Source: an uncultured Chloroflexota bacterium
GTDB taxonomy: Bacteria > Chloroflexota > Anaerolineae > Aggregatilineales > Phototrophicaceae
Assembly (NCBI GenBank): GCA_903904765.1
Contig: CAIVEA010000990.1
Coordinates: 1-6,665, forward strand
Reading direction: 5' to 3'
Length of the DNA: 6,665 bases
Shown here: positions 336 through 6,421 of the stretch, piece after piece
Layout of the letters: each line of letters begins with the position of its first letter
Position numbering within the stretch: position 1 is the first letter of the stretch
Made by a program: the position numbers and the translations under genes
Notes under the pieces: generated by a model
Told to the model about the DNA's origin: nothing
What the model saw: only the letters and a program-made list of their open reading frames with translations
The model's database searches: none

Positions 336-1370
336 CTAGTTCTGCGGCTGCGTCAGCCACGCCCACAGATGCACCAGATAACCATCCGGGAGTTCACTCT
401 CGCTGAAGGACGGCATCTGCCCCTTGCCCACACGCACCTGCTCGAAGAAAGCCGCGAAGGAAACGGTCGTCCCACGAATGGCGGGTTCGCCCTTCGTGCC
501 GCCCTCGCCGTTCGCGCCGTGACAGAACGCGCAGCGCAGCGTTCCCCACAGCACTTCGCCAATGTGCGGATCACCCGTTTCCGGCAGCGCCTCCGGTGCG
601 AAAATCACCGTTTCGCGGCGCGGCACGGTGTTGATCGCCGTCTGTTCCGAAGTCAGGAACCATAACAGCCCACCCGCCACCACCGCACCCAGCACAACGG
701 CTACGGGCAGGAACTTCTGCCGACGAGCGCGAATGGCTTCCGCCGAAAGCGCAGGCGCAGGCTGTTCGGCGAAGATATCCGCCCGTTTAGGCCGCCACAA
801 CAGAGCGATACCGAGACGCAGCAGTACCAGCACCCCGATGAATAGCATAGCCTGATCGCTGTGAACGCTACGTGCCGTCGGAATGATACTTCCCGGCAGA
901 ACTTTGGTAGCAGCAATCGGATTCCACAGGACGATACCCGTGATTGCCAGTACCAGCACACTCAGCACGATCAGCAAATATTCGAATTTCAAAATGAACG
1001 GATACGACGCTTTGCCATCGCTACCTGCGAAGTTACTCGCCACCCGCGACAGCAGGGCACGAACGTCGCTTATACCGGGCATCATCGCCCAACCGCGCTC
1101 CATGACGAAGCGGCTGTACAGCACCGCCAACACATGGTAGATCGCTTCGACCAGCAACAATCCGGCGAAAATGCGGTGCATAATGCGGAGGCTTTCAATC
1201 CCACCGCCTAGCACGAACACAATGTCCGCCCACCATGCGGTGGTATAACGCTGCGGCAATCCAGTCAGGATGAGGCCGACGAGTGCCACCGCGACCAGAA
1301 AGCGTTCGACAAGCTGCGAGGTTGACAACCCCGGTCTGATTTGCGGCTCATTTGCAGTCTGCGCTGCCAT
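336..1370 (-). CDS. membrane cytochrome b fused to a one-haem class I cytochrome c
   Basis: The product is 344 residues. Four hydrophobic helices (about 22-40, 62-88, 130-150, 170-192) form a cytochrome b domain resembling the gamma subunits of formate dehydrogenase and the b subunits of quinone-linked bc complexes. Residues 220-240 form a fifth helix. A class I cytochrome c domain follows, with CAFCH at 280-284 and a probable distal Met at 319 in a QMPSF context. Likely b-haem ligands are His65, His79 and His170. The expected helix-1 His is Arg23, and the second helix-4 His is absent, so one of the two usual b haems may be missing. The likely role is exchange of electrons between menaquinol and the c haems of its operon partners, with the c domain outside the cell membrane. 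I start it at 1370 rather than at the longer ATG at 1436, because AGAGG lies 9 nt upstream and the longer form would overlap the preceding gene by 41 bases. It is the last gene of the operon. Confidence 0.88.
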   Translation of the reverse strand: MAAQTANEPQIRPGLSTSQLVERFLVAVALVGLILTGLPQRYTTAWWADIVFVLGGGIESLRIMHRIFAGLLLVEAIYHVLAVLYSRFVMERGWAMMPGISDVRALLSRVASNFAGSDGKASYPFILKFEYLLIVLSVLVLAITGIVLWNPIAATKVLPGSIIPTARSVHSDQAMLFIGVLVLLRLGIALLWRPKRADIFAEQPAPALSAEAIRARRQKFLPVAVVLGAVVAGGLLWFLTSEQTAINTVPRRETVIFAPEALPETGDPHIGEVLWGTLRCAFCHGANGEGGTKGEPAIRGTTVSFAAFFEQVRVGKGQMPSFSESELPDGYLVHLWAWLTQPQN

Positions 1371-1377
1371 CTTACGT

Positions 1378-1384
1378 TCCCTCT
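1378..1384 (-). promoter_or_regulatory. ribosome binding site that fixes the 1370 start
   Basis: The minus strand reads AGAGGGA here, with AGAGG ending 9 nt before the ATG at 1370-1368. The site lies in the 25-nt gap after the preceding stop codon and supports the shorter 344-residue protein. Confidence 0.6.
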
Positions 1385-1395
1385 CTGTAAGCGGC

Positions 1396-2550
1396 TCAGC
1401 CGCGCCGCCGCAGGCGGCGGAACAGGTCAGACACAATGATGATGCTGACGAGGCCGATTGCGACTGGGATTAACACGTTATACAGGTTCTTCAAGAAGTA
1501 CAACACCGGATGCGTTTCGGGCGTAGCCGGATAATGACCGATCCACGCCGCCGAGAAATCGGCGCTAGCATTCGGATGGCACTGGCGGCAAGTGGTCAAC
1601 AGCGTGTTGCGGATGCTGGCAACGCCCTGATCGTCCACCTTCTGGATGTTGTGAACACCGTGACAGTCGAAGCACACGGCCTTGTTGGTCGGCACATCCG
1701 GCGACTCATGTTCAAACAGCGTGATGGTCGAACCATGAAAATCCGCTAGATAACTGTCGAACACCTGTGTGTTGATGTTGTACTTCCCCATCAACTCGCC
1801 ATTGGCATGGCAGGTCGCACATAATTCAGGCGAACCGGTGCGGAACGAAGCCGTTGTCGGGTTCTCGATGTTATGCACGCCATGACAGTCAATACAGGTT
1901 GGCACATCCGGGTTGTTTTCATCCAGCAGCGCGCCGCCATGTACGCTGTTGCGGTACTCGTCAAAGATAGCCCCATGACAGCGCCCGCAAGTGAGCGAGA
2001 TTCGCTGGCGCGGCTCATCCGGCGTTTGAATGTCATGACCGCCATGACAATCCACGCAGGTCGCCGCTTCCAATCGCCCTTCGCGGATGAACTGACCATG
2101 CACGCTGTCCTGCGCCTTCAGATATTGCTCTTCGTGGCAGTTGCGGCACACCGCGTACCGTTCAATCTGGAAATCACGGATGGTCTGGCTGAGTGAAGGT
2201 GGATGCGGATAACGGAAATTCGGATGACAGTCCGAGCAAGCCAGCGCACCTTCCGGGCTAGACGAGCCGTGTACCGAGTTTGCCAGAATGGTCGGGTCAA
2301 TCGTCACCGAGAGCGATTCGCCGCTGGGCAGATGCCACACCTGATCGGGTTTGGTATGGCACAGCAAGCAGTAGGCATCGGATGCCGCGTCAGGAGTGGC
2401 TTCTGCCGCCGTTGACGATGCTTCTGGAGTGGCTTCTGGTGTCGCCTCTGCGCTCTGGCTCTCCTGTGCTGCTACTGCGCTGAACATCATCCCCAATACG
2501 ATCATGAGGATACCCACGAGCAGCAAACCCACTTTTGCTTTGCCAATCAT
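1396..2550 (-). CDS. nine-haem cytochrome c of repeated two-haem modules, C-terminal membrane anchor
   Basis: The product is 384 residues. Residues 1-28 are a signal peptide (two Lys, a hydrophobic core, AVAA near the cleavage site), followed by a linker rich in Ala, Thr, Pro and Glu to about 58. Nine CxxCH motifs start at residues 61, 105, 135, 165, 188, 219, 244, 293 and 321. The order is regular: a CxxCH, then SVHG or DFHG (His94, 151, 204, 272, probable distal ligands), then CxDCH. The last three CxDCH sites are followed by GxHxI. Residues 359-377 form one transmembrane helix ending in an Arg-rich tail, so the haem domain is tethered to the outer face of the membrane. Its ATG overlaps the preceding TGA (ATGA), with AGGAG 9 nt upstream, and a cytochrome b gene follows. 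A multihaem c protein with a C-terminal anchor beside a cytochrome b recalls Cbc-type quinone oxidoreductases such as CbcBA of Geobacter. The electron-conduit role is inferred. Confidence 0.92.
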   Translation of the reverse strand: MIGKAKVGLLLVGILMIVLGMMFSAVAAQESQSAEATPEATPEASSTAAEATPDAASDAYCLLCHTKPDQVWHLPSGESLSVTIDPTILANSVHGSSSPEGALACSDCHPNFRYPHPPSLSQTIRDFQIERYAVCRNCHEEQYLKAQDSVHGQFIREGRLEAATCVDCHGGHDIQTPDEPRQRISLTCGRCHGAIFDEYRNSVHGGALLDENNPDVPTCIDCHGVHNIENPTTASFRTGSPELCATCHANGELMGKYNINTQVFDSYLADFHGSTITLFEHESPDVPTNKAVCFDCHGVHNIQKVDDQGVASIRNTLLTTCRQCHPNASADFSAAWIGHYPATPETHPVLYFLKNLYNVLIPVAIGLVSIIIVSDLFRRLRRRG

Positions 2551-4469
2551 GGGGTTGTCTCCTGCTTGCCTGATTTACTCCGAGACTGTCGTAAGATGAA
2601 GGTGATCCCCCCCACCAGAATAACCCCCACGATACCGAGAATGATGATCGTGATAGGCCGGAAGCCCGTCCGCACCGGAAGCTCCATACCGACAGTAATC
2701 CCCTGATCGGAGGCCGGGGTTAAGGTCGGTGCGGCCGCTTCCGTCGGCTCCAGCGAAGCACCGGGGACGGCCAGCTTGGACAGCAGCTTGGAGGCTTCGT
2801 TCAGCAGTGCGTCCGCATAGGCATAGTTATGCACGCCCAGACTGCCGTCGTTCTGCACAAAAGTCAGCGCCATCACCACGCGGTCATATTCCGCGCTCTC
2901 CGCCGTGCCAGCTTCCGGGGCTGTGACGCTGCCCAGCCGCGCCCGTGCGATGGAAATCCGCGAACGAACCGCCGCCTGCGTATCTTCGATCAACGATTGC
3001 AGATCGGTCGCCGTCAGATTATCGTGGCATTCCGAGCAGGCATCGGGCGGGCTGTCGGCCTCACCGGGGATAACCGGCTTCCACGTATGGTTCGCCAGTG
3101 ATGCGCCGCCCACCGGAACATCCTGCATGTGGCAGGTCACGCAGCGCGGGCCATCTTCCGCTGAGAAATGCACAGAAGGAATGCCGTCTACGCCATCAAT
3201 CACCGCCTGCCCTTCAAACATTTCCTTCACCGGATGATGCACAGGTTGCATCAGATCGGTGTTGGTATGGCACGCAGTACACATCTCATAGGCCGCGCTG
3301 GTGAGTTGGAAGTCCTCGCCCTCAGCCGCCTTGTGCGGGCTGTGGCAGGTGGTACAGGTGATGCAAAACTGGGCGTTCGCCAGCGTTGTCTCTTCTGGCG
3401 GCGAGCCGCTGAGGTCGCCATCAGCATACACGCCGAGGATGCGCTGGGTGAACGAATAATCTCCGCTGTGGCAGGTCACACAGCCATCCGCCGCGCTGGA
3501 ACTCCCCTTCATCGTCTCCAGCGAAGTCGAATGTGCCGACAGCATCCATTCGTTGAACTGCATGTTGTTCAGCCGCCCGTGACCAGATGCATACCACGCA
3601 GCCGGGTCTTCTTCGCCCACCAACTGGAATGCAGTCGGGTCAAGCAGAGTACCGCCGGGGCGATACTGCGTCGAATACGGATGCGCCGAGTCCGGTGTCA
3701 TGCCCTGACTGTGGCACTGACCGCAGATTTGCGCGTCCGGGCTGAGGACAACTGCGCCATGAATGGCGAGCGCCTCTTCATCAGACGGGTTATTGCCGGC
3801 CTTCTTCGCCAAATCCTTGTGGATGCTGCCCGGCCCATGACAGGCTTCGCACTGCACGCCTTCGTCCTGCCAGCGGCTACGGTCAAGGTCTAAGCCCGTG
3901 ACGTGGCAACCCGCGCAGTTATTGGTGAAGTCGTACTCTGGCGCAGGCCACGCTTCAGCCCGTGTATAAGGCCGCCAGACCTGATTCACCACATCCCACT
4001 CGGCAGGCAGAACCGCATACACCCGCTTCTCTACCTCGTAGGCGTAACGCTGCACATAGCGCCCGGAACCAATGGCGAACACGATGTCATCCGCTGTGAA
4101 TGGACGCGGAGCATCTTCGCCGGGAAACTGAACAGTACGCACATCTGCGCCCTGCTCGAAATCTCCGAGGATGGCCTTCTTGCTCTTTTTGACATCCTGA
4201 AGCGCCAGCGAATGGGGGGTTTTAACGTGATCGCGTGCAAGGCCACGATGGCAATCTTCGCAGTCATTTAGCCCGATATACTCTGCCTGTTCAGCAGCAG
4301 CATCTTGCGAGGCTGGAGCAGCAGTGGTGCTGCTCTCATCCGAAGCAGGCGCAGCATCGGTGCTGTCATCCTGTGCGCGGACGGATTGCGTCGGGAGGCT
4401 CATCGCAATACCAAGCGCGATCATGCCGAACCCACATATCAACAACCAAGTTATGATGGTGCGACCCAT
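2547..4469 (-). CDS. nine-haem cytochrome c, c554/NrfA-like, C-terminal membrane anchor
   Basis: The product is 640 residues. It has a signal peptide (1-32, cleavage probably after VRA), an Ala/Ser/Thr-rich linker to about 60, nine CxxCH motifs (residues 70, 185, 207, 249, 330, 372, 397, 443, 478), a Pro/Thr/Ala-rich spacer (about 572-588) and one transmembrane helix (605-626) with a basic tail. The first third matches the cytochrome c554-like multihaem pattern: an early haem, then an IGSGRYVQRY...VLPAEW segment (133-158), then NNCAGCH. The last third, with CVTCHM at 443-448 and GVHNYAYADALL at 545-556, resembles the helical end of NrfA/octahaem cytochromes. No CxxCK catalytic haem is present, so nitrite reductase activity is not supported. 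I start it at 4469, where GGGGA lies 7 nt upstream and a normal signal peptide follows. In-frame starts at 4487 (ATG), 4496 (ATG) and 4520 (TTG) lack a ribosome site. It is the first gene of the operon. Its substrate or partner is unknown. Confidence 0.9.
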   Translation of the reverse strand: MGRTIITWLLICGFGMIALGIAMSLPTQSVRAQDDSTDAAPASDESSTTAAPASQDAAAEQAEYIGLNDCEDCHRGLARDHVKTPHSLALQDVKKSKKAILGDFEQGADVRTVQFPGEDAPRPFTADDIVFAIGSGRYVQRYAYEVEKRVYAVLPAEWDVVNQVWRPYTRAEAWPAPEYDFTNNCAGCHVTGLDLDRSRWQDEGVQCEACHGPGSIHKDLAKKAGNNPSDEEALAIHGAVVLSPDAQICGQCHSQGMTPDSAHPYSTQYRPGGTLLDPTAFQLVGEEDPAAWYASGHGRLNNMQFNEWMLSAHSTSLETMKGSSSAADGCVTCHSGDYSFTQRILGVYADGDLSGSPPEETTLANAQFCITCTTCHSPHKAAEGEDFQLTSAAYEMCTACHTNTDLMQPVHHPVKEMFEGQAVIDGVDGIPSVHFSAEDGPRCVTCHMQDVPVGGASLANHTWKPVIPGEADSPPDACSECHDNLTATDLQSLIEDTQAAVRSRISIARARLGSVTAPEAGTAESAEYDRVVMALTFVQNDGSLGVHNYAYADALLNEASKLLSKLAVPGASLEPTEAAAPTLTPASDQGITVGMELPVRTGFRPITIIILGIVGVILVGGITFILRQSRSKSGKQETTP

Positions 4470-4476
4470 AACGAGT

Positions 4477-4481
4477 TCCCC
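4477..4481 (-). promoter_or_regulatory. ribosome binding site that fixes the 4469 start
   Basis: The minus strand reads GGGGA, 7 nt before the ATG at 4469-4467. None of the three longer in-frame starts has a comparable site, and the 4469 start gives a conventional signal peptide. Confidence 0.55.
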
Positions 4482-4538
4482 AATCATCAGGTACATGCGG
4501 GAAGATCGCCGCTCAAACAAAAAGAAGAAACAAGAAAC

Positions 4539-4553
4539 ACCTCTTAACGAGGT
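4539..4553. repeat. short inverted repeat in the operon leader
   Basis: ACCTC (4539-4543) and GAGGT (4549-4553) form a 5-bp perfect dyad around a 5-nt centre. It lies just downstream of the leftward promoter, inside the untranslated leader of the operon. It could be a weak mRNA hairpin or an operator half-site pair. It is short enough to be a chance occurrence. Confidence 0.25.
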
Positions 4554-4565
4554 TCATCTCTCATA

Positions 4566-4593
4566 AGTGTAATGGATGGGATAGAAGTGGCAA
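4566..4593 (-). promoter_or_regulatory. promoter of the three-gene cytochrome operon
   Basis: The minus strand has TTGCCA (plus 4588-4593, five of six matches to the -35 consensus) and TACACT (plus 4566-4571, four of six to the -10 consensus), separated by 16 nt. Transcription would start near 4559, giving a leader of about 90 nt before the ATG at 4469. Confidence 0.5.
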
Positions 4594-4616
4594 TCATTCG
4601 ATAGCATGATTCGGAT

Positions 4617-4632
4617 TCATCCTGCCGGATGA
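4617..4632. promoter_or_regulatory. dyad in the divergent control region, possible operator
   Basis: TCATCC (4617-4622) and GGATGA (4627-4632) form a perfect 6-bp inverted repeat around TGCC. The dyad lies about 24 nt upstream of the leftward -35 box and next to the candidate rightward -35, which is where a regulator serving both transcription units would bind. No T-run follows, so it is not a terminator. I do not recognise the motif as the site of a named regulator. Confidence 0.35.
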
Positions 4633-4633
4633 T

Positions 4634-4660
4634 TTGTGTCTGGCATAGATATGTTACGAT
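4634..4660 (+). promoter_or_regulatory. possible promoter of the NapC-like cytochrome gene
   Basis: TACGAT (4655-4660), preceded by TG one base upstream, makes an extended -10. TTGTGT (4634-4639) is a weak -35 at a short 15-nt spacing. This is the best rightward candidate in the divergent region, but it is clearly weaker than the leftward promoter. That may mean the gene needs an activator, or that I have picked the wrong boxes. Confidence 0.28.
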
Positions 4661-4750
4661 GACTAGATTAGGGTTCGTCTACACAAATGCACCCGCTGGT
4701 TCTGGTCAGCAGCGGAGTGATGCCAGACAGCGTTACAGGAACGATAAATT

Positions 4751-6421
4751 ATGATGGCATGGCTGAAACGATATATTCCGAGGCGCGGCGCAACGTTCAC
4801 GTATCGCGATCTGCTGCCCATCGGCGCATTATTGGTATTCATCGGCTTGATTCTGTTGGTCGCGCCGCCCATTTGGGAGTACAGCAACTCATCCCAGTTC
4901 TGCGGTGTCACCTGCCACACCATGCCGCCTGAGTATTCGACCTTCCTCGTGTCTCCGCATTCGCGCATTTCCTGCGTGGATTGCCACATCGGACGCGACC
5001 TATTACTGGTACAGTTCTTCCGCAAGGCTGGCCACATGCGCCTGATCGTGGACACCGTTTTGGAGAATTATGAACTCCCCATCCGCACGGCGGAGATGCG
5101 CCCGGCGCGTGAAACCTGCGAAATGTGCCATTCGCCCGAAAAATTCTCGAATGACAGTCTGCAAGTCATCCACACCTTCGACAATAACCGCACCAATGAT
5201 GCCTACGACATCTACTTGCTGATGCACACGGGCGGTAGCCAGCGGCAGGGACAGGGCAAGGGCATCCACTGGCATGTCGAAAACCCCATCACCTACATCG
5301 CACTAGACAAAGAACAGCAGGAAATCCCATGGGTGCGTGTGCAGGCTGCCGATGGCACCATCACCGAATACAACGCCATTAACTCCCCGATTGATACCAG
5401 CAATCTGGATCAATACGAAGTGAAGGAGATGGACTGCATTACCTGCCACAATCGCATCGCCCACAACATCCTGCCGCCCACCCGTGCGGTGGATGAGGCG
5501 CTGCAAATGGGCGACATCTCGCAGGATATTCCGTTCATCCGGGCGCGGGCGGTGGATCTGCTCTCGGCACGCTATGTGAATACCGAAGATGCGGTCAAGG
5601 CATTCGAGTCGCTGAATGAGTATTACAGCACCAACTACTCCGAATTTTATGCGACCGGCAAAGACCAGATAACCGCCGCCATCGCGGTACTGGAACGCCT
5701 GTACAAAGACAGCAACTATCCCGAACAGTTGTTGAGCTACGACACGCATCCGAACAACGTCGGCCATCGCGACTCGGCGGGCTGCTTCCGTTGCCATGAC
5801 GGTGAACACTTCAGTTCGACAGGCGAAGTCATCCGTTTGGAATGCAACCTGTGCCACACCATCCCGACCATTGTGCGCCCCAACCAGATCGAACCAACTC
5901 TGCCGCTGACCACTGGCATCGAACCGCAGAGCCATCTGGACACGACATGGATTAGCCGCCACCCGACGGCCTTCGATGCCAGTTGTTCCAACTGCCACAC
6001 TACCGCCAACCCCGGCGGCATTGACAACAGCAGTTTCTGTTCCAACAGCGCCTGTCATGGTTCATCATGGAAGTATGCGGGCTTTAACGCACCCGGTCTG
6101 GCAACCATTCTCGGCATCTATCAGGTGACTGCCCCGCCGCTGCTGGAGGACTTCAACGGCGAACCGACCTACGCCATTCTACAACCGCTGTTCGTACAAC
6201 AGTGTAGTGCCTGTCACGGGCAAAACCCGACCAACGGCCTGCGTGTCACCGACTACGACAGCATCATCGCAGGCAGCGATAGCGGCGCAGTGCTGATCGC
6301 CGGCGATCCCAAGAACAGCAAGATGTACAAAGTGTTGATCGGCGGTCACTTCGCGCAACTCAGCGATCATCAGATTGACCTGCTCAAGACGTGGATTGCG
6401 AACGGCCTGAAGAAAGAATAG
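4751..6421 (+). CDS. NapC/NirT-type nine-haem cytochrome with a C-terminal PSCyt1-like domain
   Basis: The product is 556 residues. A basic N-terminus and one uncleaved helix (about 21-40) anchor it, as in NapC/NrfH quinol dehydrogenases. Haem 1 is CGVTCHTM (51-58), a CX3CH motif whose Met58 stands where NrfH has its Met haem ligand. CVDCH (75), CEMCH (123) and CITCH (229) would complete a NapC-like four-haem head, with the conserved-looking GIHWHVENP segment (171-179) between the third and fourth. Further motifs are CFRCH (345), CNLCH (365), CSNCH (412), CSNSACH (430, CX4CH) and CSACH (485). The last lies in a small domain (about 470-556) ending in a TWIANG helix like planctomycete-type c domains, but with GGHFAQ where MPP is usual. 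The likely role is taking electrons from menaquinol and passing them along its haem chain outside the membrane. AGGA lies 10 nt before the ATG. The gene is transcribed divergently from the cytochrome operon and ends at its own terminator, so it is monocistronic. Confidence 0.92.
   Translation: MMAWLKRYIPRRGATFTYRDLLPIGALLVFIGLILLVAPPIWEYSNSSQFCGVTCHTMPPEYSTFLVSPHSRISCVDCHIGRDLLLVQFFRKAGHMRLIVDTVLENYELPIRTAEMRPARETCEMCHSPEKFSNDSLQVIHTFDNNRTNDAYDIYLLMHTGGSQRQGQGKGIHWHVENPITYIALDKEQQEIPWVRVQAADGTITEYNAINSPIDTSNLDQYEVKEMDCITCHNRIAHNILPPTRAVDEALQMGDISQDIPFIRARAVDLLSARYVNTEDAVKAFESLNEYYSTNYSEFYATGKDQITAAIAVLERLYKDSNYPEQLLSYDTHPNNVGHRDSAGCFRCHDGEHFSSTGEVIRLECNLCHTIPTIVRPNQIEPTLPLTTGIEPQSHLDTTWISRHPTAFDASCSNCHTTANPGGIDNSSFCSNSACHGSSWKYAGFNAPGLATILGIYQVTAPPLLEDFNGEPTYAILQPLFVQQCSACHGQNPTNGLRVTDYDSIIAGSDSGAVLIAGDPKNSKMYKVLIGGHFAQLSDHQIDLLKTWIANGLKKE

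Follow-up and report, generated by a model that had tools for sequence, protein, structure and literature searches.

Contig CAIVEA010000990.1 (GenBank assembly GCA_903904765.1) of an uncultured Chloroflexota bacterium carries, within the 6665 bases that were analysed in full and are referred to here as the window, four cytochrome genes that appear to form an electron-conducting system: cytb, c9a and c9b on the minus strand and the divergent napc on the plus strand (Table 1). The first-pass annotation of this stretch had counted 28 c-haem sites as 9+9+9+1, with which the motif counts agree: CxxCH occurs once in cytb, nine times each in c9a and c9b and seven times in napc, where a CX3CH and a CX4CH motif complete the nine. 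Composition shuffles (2000 per protein) gave at most two CxxCH motifs, and at most one for the b/c protein. Hydrophobic stretches number one in napc, at the N-terminus, two each in c9a and c9b, at both termini, and five in the b/c protein. The minus-strand genes are closely packed, with c9b and c9a overlapping by 4 nt (2547–2550) and 25 nt separating the c9a stop from the likely cytb ATG at 1370. For c9b, the ATG at 4469 (residue 18 of the listed open reading frame, ORF) is favoured by most of the 32 aligned homologues; the gap to napc measures 281 nt from this codon and 230 nt from the TTG of the listed ORF, and the 281-nt control region proposed earlier is thus right if the minus-strand operon starts at the ATG.

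Table 1 Features of the window and of the second cluster type in related genomes (TM, transmembrane helix; L numbers designate loci on genome contigs, with their own coordinates).
Feature	Position	Strand	Description
cytb	336..1370 (likely ATG 1370; listed ORF to 1436)	-	FdnI-like cytochrome b with five TMs and a fused mono-haem c domain
Arg207 codon of cytb, TM4	816..818	-	aligned to FdnI His169
Arg45 codon of cytb, TM1	1302..1304	-	aligned to FdnI His18
c9a	1396..2550	-	nine-haem NrfB/DmsE-like protein, N-terminal hydrophobic stretch, C-terminal TM
c9b	2547..4469 (likely ATG 4469; listed ORF to 4520)	-	nine-haem OcwA homologue
His428-His429 of c9b	3234..3239	-	aligned to OcwA HH380/381 over open haem 5
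Divergent intergenic region c9b/napc	4470..4750	.	281 nt
napc	4751..6421	+	NapC/NrfH-type, ImcH-like nine-haem protein, C-terminal mono-haem PSCyt1 domain
CX3CH motif (CGVTCH), residues 51-56 of napc	4901..4918	+	adjoins the only TM helix
CX4CH motif (CSNSACH), residues 430-436 of napc	6038..6058	+	
Second cluster type	L111 9844-14852, L168 7223-12060, L172 9204-13028		4Fe-4S protein tested in L111 and L172; NrfD-like protein in L111 and L168

Among the structures in Foldseek's list, to which the fold searches were limited, the nearest solved relative of c9b is by a wide margin OcwA (PDB 6i5b), the nine-haem cell-surface terminal reductase of Thermincola potens, and the match covers the OcwA fold including its C-terminal three-helix bundle. 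All nine CxxCH haems align with those of OcwA in the same order (9/9); of 587 homologues found, 120 were listed, and 113 of these have nine haem motifs. In OcwA, a His-His pair is positioned over the open haem 5 (PMC6703420). Of the corresponding residues in c9b, His428 is kept in 33/33 rows and His429 in 32/33 of an alignment that combines the window protein with 32 of those listed, and the haem 5 counterpart may be an open site. From this similarity c9b is best regarded as an OcwA homologue, although it is not classed as an OcwA orthologue since the His-His pair over haem 2 is absent, with Asn319 at the position of its second residue. It further differs from OcwA by an invariant His451 at the position of OcwA Met402 and by a C-terminal TM anchor, which follows a Pro/Thr-rich stretch, while its N-terminus bears a hydrophobic signal-like stretch; a hydrophobic stretch within the last 75 residues is found in 117/120 listed homologues. 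Moreover, c9b lies in an operon with likely partners, whereas the chain proposed for Thermincola (PMC7911101) has the locus numbers TherJR_1117, 1122, 0333 and 2595. Among 80 loci listed from a scan of genome contigs, L001–L003 gave matches of 40–44% and the others of no more than 31%. ORFs with 17 haem motifs that resemble c9b occur in L113 (3458-5911), L117 (2047-4557) and L003 (9887-12157).

The relationship to OcwA, together with the His428/429 pair that matches the one at OcwA's open haem 5 in 32/33 rows, also speaks against the earlier statement that none of the four proteins has a recognisable catalytic signature. In an alternative that we consider unlikely, the cluster would be a soluble-oxyanion reductase, with c9b as an NrfA-superfamily enzyme acting at an open haem 5 on nitrite, hydroxylamine or another N or S compound and receiving electrons from napc and c9a in the manner of NrfABCD/NrfHA. 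No CxxCK motif is found in the four window proteins, which sets c9b apart from the ammonia-forming nitrite reductase NrfA, a difference that is not decisive alone, as some NrfA use CxxCH at the catalytic haem. Against the reductase speaks also the wide margin by which OcwA is the nearest solved relative, as does the separate NrfA-family protein in many of the host genomes described below.

The second nine-haem protein, c9a, gives NrfB/DmsE-like profile matches that are all below the family cut-offs. Over 23 rows it has eight invariant and one near-invariant His outside the haem motifs, and since these nine suffice for nine bis-His haems, c9a is read as a wire. The genomes of the related loci hold a second type of cluster (L111 tested in full, the other loci in part), where c9b-like and c9a-like proteins are accompanied by a QrcC/DsrO-like 4Fe-4S protein and a QrcD/NrfD-like protein, which suggests that the nine-haem pair is a module docking on differing membrane units. 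These paralogous clusters resemble NrfABCD and the Qrc-type multihaem-NrfD complexes, whereas the window has no iron-sulphur or NrfD subunit and carries napc and cytb in their place. In L113, a single 17-haem ORF precedes the 4Fe-4S protein and NrfD. A Rieske identity was rejected for the twin-arginine-translocation-like proteins of 268–282 residues in the paralogous clusters, since those tested from L111, L113 and L172 are 4Fe-4S proteins; the gene that follows the protein encodes NrfD in the three loci tested (L111, L113 and L168). Between two paralogous clusters of L113 (8180-12726) lie ORFs which by eye alone resemble [NiFe]-hydrogenase subunits.

The divergent gene napc matches PF03264 (NapC/NirT) and, at the C-terminus, the mono-haem domain PF07635 (PSCyt1), and its similarity to NrfH is seen in TIGR03153 (5.7e-15, below its cut-off) and in the structure 2j7a_C (9.7e-7). 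With ImcH of Geobacter, a NapC/NirT-type menaquinol oxidase, it shares the NapC/NrfH-like N-terminus, a CX3CH motif adjoining the TM region and several CX2CH motifs, but it differs by the additional CX4CH motif and the C-terminal mono-haem domain. A survey of quinol oxidases in extracellular electron transfer (PMC6295460) describes ImcH homologues as having three TMs, with an atypical CX3CH beside them, those of Intrasporangium calvum and Anaerolinea thermophila being exceptions with one TM. Since napc, like the A. thermophila protein, has one TM rather than three at its N-terminus, it is classed as ImcH-like only. Among the 120 listed napc homologues, CX3CHxM is found within the first 120 residues in 119 and the longer CX3CHxMPPE in 90, and CX4CHG occurs in the same region as in napc in 110. 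One napc-like ORF (L120, 7259-9610; 783 residues) has two added stretches matching the C-terminal mono-haem region.

The TM fold of cytb matches FdnI (1kqf_C), the cytochrome b556 of E. coli formate dehydrogenase N, and its c domain (PF13442) resembles the cytochrome c subunit of actinobacterial bc1 complexes. The haem-b ligands of FdnI are H18, H57, H155 and H169; in cytb the positions of H57 and H155 are kept, whereas those of H18 and H169 are occupied by Arg45 and Arg207. The protein differs from FdnI also by its fifth TM and its c domain, and the window lacks formate dehydrogenase subunits. These residue states were taken from multiple alignments (24 and 31 of 114 rows), as pairwise alignments slipped at position 207 for a number of distant sequences and gave Arg at TM1 for L213, and the cytb tree comprises 76/114 rows owing to length and rank limits and gaps. 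The clade of the window has probably lost both the inner, cytoplasmic-side haem b and the FdnI-type quinol route that depends on it. With both inner ligand residues gone, it is doubtful whether quinol enters at the b-type module, and napc is the better candidate; the two different quinol-type entry modules proposed in the first-pass annotation are not borne out in that form. In three cytb homologues (P0286, P0288 and P0292), which form a separate clade, a single inner ligand is changed, His45 being accompanied by Tyr207. In L164 (9497-10126), the cytb ORF ends after TM4 and the translated stretch behind it shows no haem c domain, as in a degenerate copy or an assembly break.

The arrangement recalls CbcL of Geobacter, which consists of a nine-haem c domain and a HydC/FdnI-like b domain (PMC6295460). 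The window likewise encodes nine c-haems beside an FdnI-like cytochrome b, but does so in two proteins, of which the b-type one carries an additional mono-haem c domain and has its inner haem-b ligands replaced. One 809-residue ORF of a Sumerlaeota genome (L077, 16250-18679) unites c9a-like and cytb-like regions and thus resembles CbcL in architecture, although it lies outside Chloroflexota. Acceptors of high potential are served by ImcH in Geobacter and those of low potential by CbcL (PMC12307469). By analogy, loci in which cytb has His at both inner positions (H/H) may use CbcL-like quinol oxidation, H/H loci with napc may use both routes, and the clade of the window may use the ImcH-like route only.

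The four genes are found together in the window and in 12 relatives, which bears out the co-occurrence that the first-pass annotation had proposed to check. A napc match at E<=1e-60 is present in 12 of the 98 genomes of the family of G284, and these are the same genomes in which the best c9b match exceeds 900 bits, a cut set after the list was seen. Among 40 cytb rows, 14 lack His45 (the window, the 12 relatives with the locus and L207) and 26 have it, including L115 and L209, the latter with its state known at TM1 only. All 12 relatives without the TM1 His have c9b, c9a and cytb with a divergent napc upstream; cytb runs off the contig in L161, and about 3.4–3.8 kb lie between napc and c9b in L163 and L164, a gap that holds the two-component genes of these loci described below. 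A search of 33 genomes found napc in 12 of the 13 in which cytb lacks the TM1 His. A Fisher test (4.9e-6 for 12/12 vs 5/24) ignores relatedness and omits L207, and is not relied on. An apparent 18-haem fused ORF in L211 was rejected, being two genes with a stop between them.

In the locus tree (33/38 rows, with short rows such as L161 and L164 omitted and midpoint rooting used for display alone), the haem-loss clade is nested within a supported set that also includes five H/H loci. Of these five, four have napc nearby, and the fifth, L214, has no napc in its stretch but has one on another contig of its genome; L165 has napc nearby, yet falls outside the supported set. The tree indicates that both inner haem-b ligands were lost as a pair with one origin, with adjoining loci that already carry an ImcH-like gene, and we infer the order of napc first and haem loss later, which depends on the root. 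We tentatively suggest, at somewhat less than even confidence, that cytb is a half-unwired cytochrome b, which would have lost its inner haem by paired His-to-Arg replacement after an ImcH-like quinol dehydrogenase joined the OcwA-type conduit, and which would survive as a single-haem relay or an assembly subunit without passing electrons across the membrane dielectric.

Two-component genes adjoin the cluster in L163 (11797-14309, a kinase and a LuxR-type regulator by Pfam), L165 (6678-9160, a kinase by Pfam) and L164 (3405-5902, look-alikes by eye), with redox or acceptor sensing as a possible role. A ten-haem ORF of about 700 residues adjoins it in L162 (13555-15696), L110 (11225-13456) and L122 (6582-8678) and is a possible further carrier.

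Named hits to the window proteins belong to Anaerolineae/Chloroflexi, apart from a weak cytb hit, P0345 (Rudaea, 27% identity). The host background was surveyed in a panel of 16 genomes, made up of the genomes of the 12 relatives described above and of four H/H genomes in which napc lies near the locus. Omp85 was found in 0/16, the completeness of the relatives being unstated, and in 7/14 control genomes; judged by gene content, the hosts are probably single-membrane and probably oxygen-capable. A NrfA-family protein separate from the cluster is encoded in 10/16, including the closest relative, G317, and a bc-type cytochrome b (PF00033) in 16/16, whereas the Pfam scan of the four window proteins detected neither PF00033 nor a Rieske protein, unlike in cytochrome bc1. 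Since the hosts encode a bc-type cytochrome of their own and in many cases an NrfA apart from the cluster, it is unlikely that the cluster represents their bc complex or their sole nitrite reductase. Alternative Complex III (TIGR04519) was found in 1/16, but the control gave 0/14, so its absence says little. The same survey bears on a quinol:cytochrome c oxidoreductase, where the mono-haem domains of cytb and napc would pass electrons to a soluble cytochrome c and on to a haem-copper oxidase. Both proteins end in such a domain (PF13442 and PF07635), that of cytb resembles a bc1 cytochrome c subunit, and COX1 is present in 16/16; nevertheless, a bc-type cytochrome b is encoded in all these genomes, and the 18 further haems and the OcwA fold would be left without a reason, which makes this reading improbable.

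The reading that we favour with moderate confidence is that the cluster is a conserved four-protein, 28-haem wire of Anaerolineae leading from menaquinol to the cell surface. Its parts are related to components of Thermincola and Geobacter, and its cytb appears to have lost half of the usual wiring. In this conduit, napc would oxidise menaquinol on the outer side of the membrane and electrons would proceed to c9a, possibly through the single outer haem b and the haem c of cytb, and from c9a to c9b. Held outside the cell on its Pro/Thr-rich stalk, c9b would reduce extracellular acceptors such as metal oxides or shuttles, perhaps with nitrite or hydroxylamine reduced at haem 5. The first-pass annotation had likewise arrived at a transmembrane or extracellular electron conduit, possibly in a single-membrane Chloroflexota cell; the OcwA homology of c9b, the taxonomy of the hits, the Omp85 counts and the co-occurrence of the genes now argue for a conduit that is probably extracellular, in a cell that probably has a single membrane. 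Electrons might instead run inwards, with minerals or partner cells as donors and c9b and c9a leading to the quinone pool or the haem c domains, considering that CymA- and CbcL-type modules have been linked to both directions in other organisms (PMC6295460) and that the genomes hold terminal oxidases. Such uptake has little to recommend it, as the ImcH homologues are, according to that paper, so far linked to quinol oxidation alone, and the window has no donor-side enzyme.

Gene content, haem counts, homology, fold match, conservation, co-occurrence and the paired ligand replacement are direct observations, and several points weigh against the menaquinol-to-surface conduit. First, the kinship of napc to ImcH and of c9a-cytb to CbcL follows from motif and architecture, and at haem 2 of c9b the OcwA pair is missing, with H282 replaced by Asn319 (Asn in 33/33) and H281 falling in an insertion. 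Next, napc lies near 5 of the 26 loci with the TM1 His, always downstream (four convergent, one on the same strand), some stretches being too short to show it, and is found in 9/20 of the other genomes searched, which means that the wider module does not require it; G324, whose R/R cytb (L207) is on a contig that starts at the gene, gave no napc match, its genome completeness being unstated. Finally, the window encodes no cell-wall conduit like CwcA, and with COX1 in 16/16 extracellular respiration is not the sole option of the hosts. Flow direction, partner order, surface location, acceptor and the absence of the inner haem are deductions from these observations.

Beyond the end of cytb lie a tRNA-Val (CAC) gene at 148-222 on the plus strand, which was the only hit of an Rfam scan of the window, and between it and the converging cytb a terminator-like hairpin of 10 pairs (229-253). 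Promoter and terminator scans were uninformative (5 found vs 3.4 expected and 8 vs 5.5, respectively). Viral contigs gave a single pattern stretch and no relative, and 14 plasmid records matched partly, none reaching 80% coverage.

The kinds of components are known, whereas full-text searches of PMC, which reach neither subscription papers nor preprints, gave no description of a single locus that combines them or of a half-unwired cytochrome b. To our knowledge, the detailed understanding of electron export by single-membrane bacteria comes from few organisms. Electron export by Chloroflexi is itself not new, as a bioanode study (PMC7399161) cites a Chloroflexi isolate capable of ferric iron reduction and of electron exchange with electrodes; the passages cited also mention large multihaem proteins of Anaerolineales, to which they assign no route. 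A compact four-gene set conserved in Anaerolineae would supply such a route as well as a marker for it. The paired ligand loss makes it testable whether the quinol site has moved from a b-cytochrome to a NapC-type protein, and at what cost or saving in proton-motive force; if true, the half-unwired cytb would alter the energy yield of surface respiration in the clade of the window.

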